DNA of 64,000 bases. It comes from Cyclobacteriaceae bacterium. GTDB taxonomy: Bacteria; Bacteroidota; Bacteroidia; Cytophagales; Cyclobacteriaceae. This document shows positions 16,290 through 32,291 of the stretch, in pieces. The notes beneath the pieces were generated by a model that made no database searches, had not been told where the DNA came from, and saw nothing but the letters and a program-made list of their open reading frames with translations. The stretch's first letter is position 1. Each line of letters begins with the position of its first letter. The stretch spans positions 1-64,000 of the forward strand of contig JAGQYM010000002.1 in NCBI GenBank assembly GCA_020436085.1. Direction: 5' to 3'. Position numbers and translations under genes: made by a program.

Positions 16290-16832
16290 CTAGTTGAGTG
16301 GAATTTTTTCCGGCACAAGGATGGCGTTGGCAAAAAGTTTTCGGAGGCGAAGCAAATCTTTTTGCGCTTCCAGCTTGGAAAAGTATTGACCAACAGTGAC
16401 GCGAAATTTGGGCTGAGTATATTGAACATTGGCGTCCAAATCACCCATTTCCATTACCATCTTGGATTTTGCGCTAATAGCTTCCTCTCGGTTTTGTCCG
16501 GAATAAATCTGGATGGTATAGCCGTCAGTGAACTTTCGGTTTCTATTGATTTTATCCAGACTATCAAGTACAAGGTCAACTTTAGAGTTCACTGTGCGCG
16601 ATGCCAATACAGTTTGATTGGGTTTGTCCTTTACTATCTCCTTACCAGTTGTTGTATCGCGAGCCTCGTCCTCAAATTTTGGGCGATAAGCAGTGAGGTC
16701 TTCACTGTATGCTTCGCCTGATGAACCTCCGGTACTTTGCTGTGCTGCACATGATGCCTGGACCAATACCAAACCCAACATGAGATTAAAAGCCCACTTA
16801 CGCATTTGTTGAAATATTTTGTTGAGAGTCAT
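16290..16832 (-). CDS. SPOR domain lipoprotein
   Basis: A 180-residue exported protein. The signal sequence ends in VLVQASC, a lipobox with Cys at residue 28 counted from the ATG at 16832. A low-complexity linker follows, then a C-terminal SPOR domain (about 100-178) with YTIQIYSGQNREEAISAK, then FRVTVGQYFSKLEAQKDL. SPOR domains bind denuded peptidoglycan at division sites. The ATG at 16832 overlaps (TAATG) the stop of the extended secA reading frame; an alternative ATG at 16805 would give a shorter n-region. Both are plausible. Confidence 0.88.
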   Translation of the reverse strand: MTLNKIFQQMRKWAFNLMLGLVLVQASCAAQQSTGGSSGEAYSEDLTAYRPKFEDEARDTTTGKEIVKDKPNQTVLASRTVNSKVDLVLDSLDKINRNRKFTDGYTIQIYSGQNREEAISAKSKMVMEMGDLDANVQYTQPKFRVTVGQYFSKLEAQKDLLRLRKLFANAILVPEKIPLN

Positions 16833-16960
16833 TATTGCTCAATAACAATACACTTACCGTTTTTCACGTCTTCTTCTACTTTCTTAAATTTTACATCCTT
16901 CAGCACGCGACCATCTGTGTACTGCACAGATACCTTATCGTTGCGCCCGGCAATTTTTTT
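16832..16960 (-). pseudogene. secA: In-frame secA C-terminal tail beyond a TAA stop
   Basis: Directly after the secA stop (TAA at 16961-16963) the same frame stays open for 42 codons and ends at TAA 16832-16834. The translation begins KKIAGRND, continues VSVQYTDGRVLKDVKFKKVE and ends GKCIVIEQ. This reads like the C-terminal tail (GRND-K-V then a small beta-rich end) that I recall for SecA of Bacteroidota in place of the zinc-binding tail. No frame change is needed: one substitution in the TAA would restore a 1117-residue SecA. The region is otherwise a 128-base gap in a densely packed area. Confidence 0.72.
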
Positions 16961-19900
16961 TTATTTTACTGGAAGCACTTTTTCCTCTACTTCTCGTTGT
17001 GGACCTTGTGGTTGCTGTTGACCGCCTTGTAAGAGGGATCTGGATTCGTCTTTTTGTTCCTTCAAACGTTCGCGCCTGTGCGATCTAGCCTCTTGAACTT
17101 GCTCTGGCTCTCGCACTGGTATCTCAGCCTTCATCAAGAACGAAACCGTTTCTTCGTTTACCTTGGAAATAAACCTTTTGAATGCTTCGAATCCTTCAAA
17201 CTTATAAATCAAAAGTGGATCCTTTTGTTCATAAACAGCATTTTGCACGGACTGTTTGAGGTCGTCCATGTCACGCAAGTGTTCTTTCCACTGCTGGTCA
17301 ATGATCGCAAGTGTGATCATCTTTTCCATCGACTTGGTCAGTTCAGCATTGTTCGTTTCAACGCATCTTTTTAAGTCAGCGGCCACACCAATTTGCTTTG
17401 ATCCATCAGTGAATGGTACCAATATATTTTCAATCGTTGCGCCACGAGTTTTGAAAATCTCGCTAATCACCGGCATCGCTTTCTCCGCCACCCCTTTGTT
17501 CTTGTGGTCATAGTGTTTCAGCGCCTCATCGTATAACTTTTCGGCTAGTTGACCTGCATCTGTCTTTTCAAATTCCTCTTCGTTGATGGCGAAGTCAAAT
17601 CCCAACATGCTGAGAACTGTAAGCTTAAAGTCTTCAACTTTATCACCTGCCTTAGCATTGTTAACGATGTCTTCGCAGGTATCGTATAGCATGGTGAGGA
17701 TATCCAGCTGTAGACGCTCGCCAAAGAGTGCGTTTTTCCTTCGCTTGTAGATCACCTCTCTTTGGGAGTTCATCACGTTGTCATATTCAAGCAGTCGCTT
17801 TCTGATGCCGAAGTTGTTCTCTTCTACTTTCTTCTGCGCTCGTTCGATGGAATTGGTAACCATTGAGTGAGAAATTACCTCGCCTTCTTTAAGGCCAAGA
17901 CGGTCCATGATTCTTGCGATACGCTCAGGCATGAACAAACGCATCAGGTTATCTTCCAGCGAAACGAAAAATTGTGATGACCCTGGATCTCCTTGTCGTC
18001 CAGACCTACCACGAAGCTGGCGATCCACGCGTCTTGATTCGTGACGTTCCGTACCAATGATGGCCAGACCACCCGCAGCGCGCGACTCTGGCGTTAGTTT
18101 GATGTCGGTACCGCGACCTGCCATGTTTGTCGCGATCGTAACTGTGCCTGGCTTTCCGGCTTCGGCAACAATCTCTGCTTCTCTTTGATGCTGCTTCGCG
18201 TTCAACACCTGGTGTTTTATTTTTTTCAACTGAAGCATTCTGCTCAGTAGCTCAGAGATTTCAACTGACGTGGTACCTACAAGTACAGGCCTTCCTTCTC
18301 CGGTAAGTTTTACAATTTGGTCAACAACAGCATTAAATTTTTCGCGCACAGTTTTATATACCAGATCGTCCATGTCCTCGCGTACGATGGACTTGTTAGT
18401 TGGAATTACGACCACATCCAACTTATAGATATCCCAAAACTCACCGGCTTCAGTCTCGGCTGTACCCGTCATACCGGCCAGCTTGTGGTACATCCTGAAG
18501 TAATTCTGCAACGTGATTGTGGCGTAAGTCTGCGTTGCGTCTTCCACCTTCACGTTTTCTTTAGCTTCAATTGCCTGGTGTAACCCATCAGAATACCTGC
18601 GGCCATCAAGAACACGCCCGGTTTGCTCATCCACGATTTTTACCTTTCCATCCACGATGATGTATTCAGTATCGCGTTCGAATAACGTGTAAGCCTTTAG
18701 CAACTGGTTTACACTGTGAATGCGCTGGGCTTTGGTTGTATAATCTCTGATAAGCTCTTCTTTCAGCTTAGCTCGCTCTTCACCCGTAGCCTGTGTGTTA
18801 TTCTCAATCTTGTTTAGTTCAATTCCGATCTCAGGAAGAATGAAAAATCTTGGATCCTCTCCTTCACCTGTGATCAGATCAATGCCATTGTCGGTAAGGT
18901 CAATGCTATTGTCCTTTTCGTCAATTACAAAGTACAGAGGTTTATCTGCCTCTGGCATCATTTTCTTGTTGTCCTGCAGATAGAAATTTTCTGTTTTCAA
19001 CATGATGTTCTTAATGCCAGTCTCGCTTAAAAACTTGATCAGGGGCTTATGCTTGGGCATTCCTCGATGAGCGCGAAACAGCGCCAATCCGCCATCTTTC
19101 TCGTTGCCTTCGCCTATCTGCTTTTTGGCTTCATTGAGGTATTGGGTAACCAATTTCTTTTGAGCCTCCACAATCTTGTGTACCCGTGGCTTCAGGTCAT
19201 AAAACTCGTGTTCATCACCTTTCGGTACAGGCCCGGAAATAATCAGGGGGGTACGCGCTTCATCTACCAGCACGCTATCCACTTCATCCACCATCGCATA
19301 GTGATGACCTCTGCGCTGCACAAGCTCCTCCGGATCGCGGGCCATGTTGTCGCGCAAGTAGTCAAAACCAAACTCATTGTTGGTTCCGTAGGTAATATCT
19401 GCTTCGTATGCTTTGCGTCTCTGAGGTGAGTTCGGCTCGTGCTTGTCAATGCAGTCAACTGTCAGCCCGTGGAATTGGAATAACGGTGCCATCCACTCAC
19501 TGTCACGCTGTGCCAGATAGTTATTTACAGTCACCACATGCACACCACGTCTCGCCAGCGCGTTGAGGAAGGCGGGAAAGGTAGCCACGAGTGTTTTACC
19601 TTCACCTGTCGCCATTTCGGCAATCTTTCCTTCGTGGAGTACGATACCTCCGATCACCTGCACATCATAGTGCACCATGTCCCATTTGATCACGTTGCCT
19701 GCGGCAATCCAATGATTTTGCCAGATCGCCTTATCTCCGCTAATTGCTACATTCTGATGAGTAGCAGCCATCACCCGGTCATAGTCCTGGGCGGTTACTT
19801 CGAGTTGTTCGTTTTCTTTGAACCTCCGGGCTGTGTCTCTGACTATGGCGAAAGCCCTTGGAAGAACTTCCATCAGCACTACCTCAAGCTCGGTATTTCG

Positions 19901-20185
19901 ATCTTTTTCGAGCTTATCGATCTGATTGAAAATGGATTCCTTTTCGTTCAGGTCTAGCTCGGGATGGTCATTGATGCGTTGATGAAGGCCAGCCAACTGG
20001 TCATCAATGTTTTTAAGTTTTTGATTGATATGATCCTGAATTTCCCAGGTCTTTTTCCTCAGTTCATCGTTCGAAAGTCCCTTCAGTTTCTCGCCCTCAG
20101 CATTGGTTTGCTCTACCAAAGGCATCATCACTTTGATGTCCTTTTCTGACTTAGACCCAAAGATTTTGGCAATAAATTTTAACAT
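16961..20185 (-). CDS. secA: Preprotein translocase ATPase SecA
   Basis: SecA drives proteins through SecYEG using ATP. The 1074-residue product has MATGEGKTL (Walker A, about residue 195), the [20 protein letters not shown] segment (DEAD-type Walker B), an insertion in NBD1 typical of this phylum, the [12 protein letters not shown] and GTTSVEISE region, [11 protein letters not shown] and [14 protein letters not shown], then the helical scaffold and wing ending with [16 protein letters not shown]. The ORF stops in a basic Q-rich linker (VEEKVLPVK), just short of the tail described in the neighbouring entry. Lack of that tail should not abolish the motor, because C-tails of other SecAs are dispensable for translocation in vitro. 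Confidence 0.97.
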
Positions 20186-30294: not shown

Positions 30295-31281
30295 TCAATA
30301 GTGTTCTTCTCTTGACCCCGCTGAAGGATCACTTTCTCCAAGGGACTGGATGTCATCCATCAAACCTTTTGCTTCTTTCAATTCTACAAGGTTAAAGTAT
30401 TGGAGTGCAATCCCAATGTTGGGAATGGAATAAAGAACCATCTGCGCCAGGTAGTATAGCGTGAAGAAGAGAACTGTCATCGCTTTCCAGTTGAATGAGG
30501 GTTCTTGAAAAACATCAGTACTCGTGTTGTGTAAAGTATTTACAATCATTACTGCATACCACGGAATTAAGAAAAGATATGAAAGTGTGGAAACAATAAG
30601 GCTGAGTATCATCACTAGCCCAAACGTGCTCCACCACTTTCCGCGAACCAGAAAAAATGACCGTCTGATAGCAGAGATGAATCCAGTCTTCTCATAGTTT
30701 CGAATGAAAAATGTAAGGGAAGCACCAAAAAAGAAATAGAAGACGCCTACAAATACTCCGATCACTCCGAAACCGACCAGAAATGGAGAGATAGCTCCGA
30801 GTAAAAAAACAGGCAGAATCAGGATAATATAAACGACCATGAATAAGATAACAAAGAAGATCATCGTACCCAGGTACATGAAGAACGTCTGTTTCACCTT
30901 CTCCCAAACTTCATGCACCTCGATCTTGTTCGATTTCCTTTCTCCATAAAGTATAATGTAGTTGTTGATAGAACTGATTGATGCTATCCCGCTGATAAGC
31001 ATGAATAAGCCTCCAAAGGTAATTTGCAGCCAGAAGTTTACAGAACTAAAATAGTTCTCAAATGCTTCCGATTCGCCAGAATAAGCTGATTGAGAAAGAT
31101 TAAAAAAATCGCCAATAAAAGAGCCGAGCAACAAACTGCCCATGAGCACTGGTGGGCCAGCGATAAAAAGAACACTCTTCGTCAGTGGGCGAAAATTTTG
31201 TTTCAGGAACTCAAACGTGACATTGATTTTTTTTGAAAAATCACGAGCCCTGTGAAATTCAATTGGTACGAAGCTTTCCAT
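30295..31281 (-). CDS. Polytopic membrane protein of the MoxR/SpoIIM cluster
   Basis: A 328-residue protein with about six hydrophobic segments (roughly 35-60, 85-110, 135-165, 170-195, 220-245, 265-290). It is glycerophosphoryl-diester-phosphodiesterase-membrane-domain-like in overall pattern but I do not recognise a family securely. It overlaps the SpoIIM gene by 23 bases and is followed 2 bases later by DUF4129. The GKWWSTFGLVMI and FNLVELKEAKGLMDDIQ segments look like the usual Bacteroidota version of this gene position. Probably a membrane partner of the cluster. Confidence 0.8.
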   Translation of the reverse strand: MESFVPIEFHRARDFSKKINVTFEFLKQNFRPLTKSVLFIAGPPVLMGSLLLGSFIGDFFNLSQSAYSGESEAFENYFSSVNFWLQITFGGLFMLISGIASISSINNYIILYGERKSNKIEVHEVWEKVKQTFFMYLGTMIFFVILFMVVYIILILPVFLLGAISPFLVGFGVIGVFVGVFYFFFGASLTFFIRNYEKTGFISAIRRSFFLVRGKWWSTFGLVMILSLIVSTLSYLFLIPWYAVMIVNTLHNTSTDVFQEPSFNWKAMTVLFFTLYYLAQMVLYSIPNIGIALQYFNLVELKEAKGLMDDIQSLGESDPSAGSREEHY

Positions 31282-32227
31282 TTCTCTTTAAACGAATAGG
31301 ATAGATGACAAAATAATAGATTATCAACGCAGCCGAGAGAATTATGATCACAGCCTTAATCACCCATGGCATAAAAGCATATCGGGTGATAAATGATTCA
31401 ATAAATCCAGCGACAATAAAAAACGGCACCAGCCCCATTACTATCTTGAGACCTTTTACTGCACCCATTTTAAACGAGGCGAGTCGTGAGTAGGTACCTG
31501 GAAAAAGCAGACTGTTGCCCATTGTAAATCCGGCAGCAGCAGCGATTACAATAGACGACAATTCGATAGTACCATGGAGCATAATAACCGGAAATGCCTG
31601 ACTCAATTCATTTTCCTGATAAAAGAACATAAGAAATGTGCCAACCATCAGCCCGTTGTAAAACAGATAGAACCCAGTGCCGAATGATGCAAAGATGCCG
31701 TACACAAACACACGAAAGGAAACCATGATGTTATTTAATGTGATTTGATAAAACATCTCCATTTGGGTGCCAGATGCATACACTTTTGTTGGATTTCCAT
31801 TCTTAATGTTTTCCAGTGTCATGTTCACATAGCCGTCTCCGAGTATGAGTCTAACAAACGTATCATCGTAAGCGGTCGAGATTACGCCTATTAAACCTGC
31901 GATCACGAAAATGAAAAAAGAGTAGAGAAGAGGCTTTTGTGCTTCAGCCATAATTGCCGGTAGTTCATATTTCCAGAAAGTGATAAATCGGCTTCTCTCT
32001 TCTTTTTTGTTTTTATAAATCTCAAGATGGATTTTGCTTGCCAACGCATTTAAATATTGCGTGGTACGGCTCTTGGGGTATTGCGTGCGAGAAAAGGAGA
32101 GGTCGTCAGTGACCTGAATAAATAGTTCGGCCAACTTATCAGGCTTGGCATGCCGCTGATCAACGACCACTTTTTCAAACTCCTCCCATCGAGGTTTGTT
32201 TTGTTTTACAAACTGGGCCTCCCGCAT
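31259..32227 (-). CDS. SpoIIM-family (stage II sporulation protein M-like) membrane protein
   Basis: A 322-residue protein with an N-terminal soluble helical part (about 1-100) and five or six membrane segments. MFYQITLNNIMVSFRVFVYGI and MLHGTIELSSIVIAAAAGFTMGNSLL with the HGTxELS motif mark the SpoIIM/DUF95 family. The organism is not expected to sporulate; in non-sporulating Bacteroidota the gene travels with RDD, DUF4129, MoxR and DUF58, as here. It is the first gene of the operon. Confidence 0.9.
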   Translation of the reverse strand: MREAQFVKQNKPRWEEFEKVVVDQRHAKPDKLAELFIQVTDDLSFSRTQYPKSRTTQYLNALASKIHLEIYKNKKEERSRFITFWKYELPAIMAEAQKPLLYSFFIFVIAGLIGVISTAYDDTFVRLILGDGYVNMTLENIKNGNPTKVYASGTQMEMFYQITLNNIMVSFRVFVYGIFASFGTGFYLFYNGLMVGTFLMFFYQENELSQAFPVIMLHGTIELSSIVIAAAAGFTMGNSLLFPGTYSRLASFKMGAVKGLKIVMGLVPFFIVAGFIESFITRYAFMPWVIKAVIIILSAALIIYYFVIYPIRLKRNGKLRTN

Positions 32228-32237
32228 TTATAAAATG

Positions 32238-32291
32238 ATTGAGGCTGGAAGTTAGAGTTTAAGATTTTTAGCTCCAACTTCCAGCCTCAAT
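32238..32291. terminator. Long inverted repeat between dipeptidase and SpoIIM genes
   Basis: A perfect 16-bp stem, 32238-32253 with 32276-32291, encloses a 22-base loop that can add three more pairs after a mismatch. It lies just downstream of the dipeptidase stop and just upstream of the SpoIIM start. On the minus strand it is followed by CATTTTAT, a weak U tract, so it can serve as the dipeptidase terminator or as an mRNA-end stabiliser. Confidence 0.7.

Follow-up and report, generated by a model that had tools for sequence, protein, structure and literature searches.

A stop codon found in one draft genome parts SecA from its conserved C-terminal tail

In the 64,000-nucleotide stretch of DNA that we analysed (the window), the secA gene carries an in-frame TAA 42 codons ahead of what is, judged from profile matches and alignment, the true end of SecA. 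The reading that we prefer, with a confidence just short of even, is a very young nonsense allele of the only full-length secA in this genome (G000); this allele and an artefact are nearly equal as explanations, and we lean only slightly to the real allele. The features of the locus are as follows.

20185..16961, minus strand: secA open frame, 1,074 codons plus TAA (NF009536, 1804.7 bits; cut-off 1493)
16963-16961, minus strand: first in-frame TAA of secA, at a column that is serine in 55/55 readable same-genus relatives
16960-16835, minus strand: 42-codon tail in the secA frame, assigned to the conserved SecA C-terminal mini-domain
16834-16832, minus strand: second in-frame TAA, which closes the long frame and overlaps the SPOR ATG
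16954..16962, minus strand (T9 on the plus strand): A9 run, taking in both As of the first TAA
16832..16290, minus strand: SPOR-domain gene, 180 aa, downstream of secA

The minus-strand open reading frames and their translation confirmed that, as an earlier note on this DNA had described, the secA TAA is followed in the same frame by 42 open codons and then by a second TAA, the last base of which is the first base of the SPOR ATG (16832; TAATG). The tail (16960-16835, secA frame) translates as KKIAGRNDKVSVQYTDGRVLKDVKFKKVEEDVKNGKCIVIEQ. The A9 run placed by that note beside the stop does exist (16954-16962), although it contains the last two bases of the stop rather than adjoining it. G000, the genome of the window, is a draft of 4.42 Mb in 191 contigs, 98.93% complete; the window makes up the first 64,000 bases of its contig C114. 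The closest labelled relatives of G000 among the best 80 matches include several metagenome bins and are assigned to Cyclobacteriaceae, Flammeovirgaceae and Chryseolinea. No second full-length secA was found in G000, where the other match covers 49 residues at 39% identity; with a single full-length copy, a second secA covering the loss is ruled out.

The SecA body clears the curated cut-off of NF009536 (1804.7 bits against 1493), and a profile search with the 42-residue tail alone matched positions 1079-1118 of the 1118 in this model (E 3.5e-5). When the search was allowed to read through the stop, SecA scored 1840.1 bits and reached position 1118. The window's protein thus resembles NF009536 (PRK12901)-type SecA in that body and tail both match, the tail as the last 40 positions of the model, and differs from it in that a stop parts the two: there is no uninterrupted frame through the C-terminal mini-domain, since the TAA precedes it. 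The closest relatives (G344, G328 and G327), whose SecA bodies are 86-88% identical to that of the window, have 38, 39 and 38 of the 42 tail residues, respectively, in common with it. Chance homology of the tail is ruled out by the NF009536 match, the alignment of relatives and a survey of the order. The idea that KKIAGRND marks the conserved end of SecA holds for the tail as such, which is conserved, but not for its first lysine, where the relatives read SEK-xAGRND.

We then compared the stop site across relatives. The site was read in 58 of the 62 genus genomes, the window included (G003, G010, G018 and G020 were left out), and 56 of these 58 loci, again with the window, were readable, 2 being cut by contig ends. 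Serine occupies the stop column in all 55 readable same-genus relatives, and the next column is glutamate in 53 of them and aspartate in 2. The claim that the 42 codons belong to SecA would have fallen had the relatives ended before the stop and lacked the tail; it survived, as all 55 have the tail and none has the stop. NF009536 was matched in 62/62 genus genomes, with an internal stop reported for the window and G003 only. The TAG of G003 was rejected as a stop in SecA, since the contig breaks off ahead of the tail with its final 100 codons open. In a survey of the family, 290/295 genomes matched and, among the matches listed, only G000 had a stop; in a survey of the order with the tail alone, 137/148 genomes matched and the tail stood by itself, as a 42-codon frame, only in G000. 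Among the matches listed in the order survey, all tail matches outside G000 lay in frames of at least 235 codons, and the shorter frames with a tail match in G415, G385 and G436 are proteins other than the main SecA. TAA flags raised in G375, G427 and G440 were dismissed because the match had overrun the natural end of the gene. Separately, we observed secA split into two matches in three drafts of the genus, at L150 (G329), L151 (G332) and L153 (G338), two of them near residue 275.

Two adjacent codons, rather than a single one, differ from the conserved sequence. Of the 42 columns scored from the stop onwards, just two, the stop itself and its next codon, carry a window residue that is absent from 46 relatives, whereas in the SecA body a residue that no relative has occurs at 3 of 651 near-invariant columns. 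Because the two unique changes adjoin against only 3/651 in the body, the alignment suggests that the side-by-side pair is one clustered event. The window SecA ranks 18th of 47 in its count of unique residues at near-invariant columns and is therefore not a noisy sequence. Two of the three body cases are themselves adjacent, in a stretch without a long homopolymer, so adjacent unique pairs also arise in such surroundings. No repeats of at least 12 bases that could have been the template of the change were found near the site, and a search of IMG/VR with the 25-base site pattern gave 0 matches.

A clustered event could also have arisen outside the organism. The stop would then come from faulty base calling, consensus building or assembly in a metagenome-like draft, with the two odd codons as one clustered error that lengthened the A-run and with secA intact in the organism itself, a reading to which we give a probability somewhat below even. 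It is favoured by the two adjacent departures at near-invariant columns set against the 3/651 of the body, and by the A9 run that the stop and the next codon build together, one of three 9-base homopolymers in the 153-kb contig. A draft in 191 contigs in which no 16S gene was found also fits a metagenome bin, although the same 16S search missed 5/14 control genomes. To set against this, we mapped genes of relatives onto the contig: 101 of 289 relative ORFs (at least 100 codons) passed the filters of 60% coverage and 45% identity, and 16 of the 101 were flagged, all for stops. Three of these are secA; 6, in four genes, have stops that fall ahead of the start codon or among the final codons; and 7 are relative ORFs opposite a contig open frame, 6 of which also face a longer frame in the relative itself. 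The mapped genes thus hold no further internal stop besides that of secA, and none of the 101 relative ORFs shows a frame change on the contig, which speaks against the artefact. At window positions 31253-32239, the ORF of the relatives runs two codons past the point, 31259, where that of the window stops; the next ORF (30295-31281) already overlaps there, and this probably reflects no more than a routine change in where a gene ends.

Mismatches near A/T runs of at least 6 bases were significantly raised in 1/3 comparisons around the runs of the window and in 2/3 around those of the relatives. Systematic error at homopolymer edges was rejected on this basis, as the excess near window runs is not specific to the window once the relatives' own runs serve as the control. 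Published error profiles would also argue against a substitution artefact here: the substitution errors known from Illumina sequencing cluster in contexts that end in GG and not in A/T runs, for which insertions and deletions are reported instead (PMC4787001).

To date the stop, we analysed selection on the tail. Of 59 same-genus loci, 47 full-length genes were kept (the 12 dropped comprise 3 with N, 2 short at contig ends and 7 with partial or split matches), and a codon model was fitted to 15 of the 47, with the 42-codon tail given a synonymous rate fixed to that of the body. Comparison of the tail with that of G328 showed 23 synonymous and 3 non-synonymous codon differences. Omega was 0.0235 for the SecA body, and for the tail 0.0204 on the window branch versus 0.0155 on the other branches (LRT 0.19); an omega of 1 (neutral) for the tail on the window branch was rejected (2dlnL 144.0). 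When a final part of the window branch, which is about 1.05 synonymous substitutions per codon long, was made neutral, the log-likelihood dropped by about 2 units at 4%, so that at most about 4% of the branch is neutral; omitting the codon beside the stop lowered this limit to 3% and moved the best value from near 1% to 0. Old decay of the tail is ruled out by this fit. Such constraint on the window branch leaves three possibilities: a very young stop, a stop that is absent from the organism (an assembly error), or a tail that is still translated. The undecayed downstream codons and the absence of the stop from relatives are what a young nonsense allele predicts, and full constraint on the tail is equally what an error would leave. 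In-frame stops in bacterial genes are described as persisting mostly on the scale of population polymorphism (PMC7918605). Stops with constrained downstream sequence in that study are like the one found here, a single internal stop, apparently young, with low dN/dS behind it; they differ in that orthologous stops in at least two species were used there to remove sequencing errors, whereas here the stop comes from one genome, the only one of its species in the analysis.

Continued translation of the tail could come about in two ways. In functional readthrough, the UAA would be decoded at some rate, short and long SecA would both be made, and the tail would remain under selection. The intact frame and the strong constraint on the window branch are compatible with this, and constraint behind in-frame stops has been read as its sign (PMC7918605). 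The genus and order surveys, however, found the stop in no relative, and thus in no independent genome surveyed is it kept ahead of a constrained tail; and in E. coli reporters, UAA leaks less than the other stops (PMC11126739). None of the 33 tRNA matches in G000, all 33 of which could be typed, has a UUA anticodon (150 of 223 first-look candidates were scored), and the 100 bases of RNA after the stop show no marked structure, folding about like shuffles (z -1.10; equalled or exceeded in stability by 30/200 shuffles). Because the A9 run starts inside the stop, slippage along the run should not be able to bypass that stop. We consider readthrough unlikely. A regulated form, in which controlled UAA readthrough would yield mostly SecA that lacks the mini-domain and a smaller amount that has it, the stop codon setting the tailed share, is less likely again. 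Readthrough is not needed to explain the locus and has no support beyond the constraint on the tail; among the three causes that the earlier note offered, recent nonsense mutation and sequencing or assembly error both fit, and readthrough is the one without positive evidence. The second way would be a split gene, with the tail re-initiated after the stop, translated separately and acting in trans. The tail forms a module of its own, found at the end of other proteins of the order too, but its frame has no ATG or TTG, only ATT and GTG codons, and the order survey found the tail alone in no other genome, making this reading very improbable.

With a very young allele retained as the preferred reading, we turn to the gene downstream. 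In the window, the first ATG comes two bases after the first base of the long frame's stop; in G344, G328 and G327 it starts five bases after that base, and in the more distant G021 the figure is 61. Short spacing between secA and the SPOR gene is, by these start positions, kept in the closest clade. Within the window SPOR ORF, another in-frame ATG lies 27 bases downstream and could be the real start. It is plausible that a putative translational coupling between secA and the SPOR gene is lost through the stop, as the earlier note had proposed.

We also looked at the tail module itself. By a simple pattern, 38 of 88 SecA loci have a tail of the window's kind, 27 have one of the metal-binding kind and 23 have neither, although some of the 23 are plainly divergent forms of the window's kind and three are cut by contig ends. 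The module, of about 40 residues (GRNDKVTVQYxDG...), also ends other proteins of the order, one of them a DUF1186 protein; besides window 16835-16960, it occurs at L214 495-1601 and 1641-3434, L212 380-1978 and L213 375-1943. It seems to replace the Cys-rich metal-binding tail behind a shared GRND motif. A divergent version (KVTIKN...GE.K..KYKQA...G.WVL) ends SecA at L076, L083, L084, L086, L088, L092, L095 and L105, which are mostly flavobacterial. Pfam gave no convincing match (the best, weak match had E 0.011 and was found in 5/41 members), and the module had no match in solved structures. Literature searches on the SecA tail with the metal-binding domain in Bacteroidetes, and on the SEC-C motif with SecA and DUF1186, returned nothing related; a search for SecA and Bacteroidetes gave, by title among the matches listed, nothing on this tail.

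The cost of losing the tail can be gauged from E. coli, where SecA lacking the metal-binding domain or the tail complements a secA deletion, although strains carrying either form are inviable at room temperature; when just the metal-binding domain is missing, cells grow poorly even at the permissive temperature (PMC6620043). The window's lesion is like these truncations in keeping the motor and losing the distal tail, and like the delta-MBD form in particular in that the linker is retained and the last mini-domain lost. It differs in that the lost module is not of the Cys-rich metal-binding type, that the E. coli forms were made on purpose and that no SecB was found in G000, by a search that detected SecB in 4/14 control genomes including E. 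coli. By this analogy, the truncated SecA should remain functional, though at a cost.

If the allele is real, these observations suggest the following course. As the comparison with relatives indicates, a small, localised mutation within A-rich sequence would have turned the serine codon into TAA and altered the adjoining near-invariant codon. Translation would end after residue 1074, leaving SecA with its whole motor and linker and without the last mini-domain, and the tail would still be intact for want of time to decay, as the selection fit supports. The truncated protein would, like tail-less E. coli SecA, still support growth, probably at some cost, and for that reason the allele is likely a short-lived variant in the population. 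The lesion is an ordinary one; it is a reminder that a conserved domain can drop out of an annotated essential protein unnoticed. Should the allele prove real, it would offer a natural experiment on the role of the SecA tail in this group.
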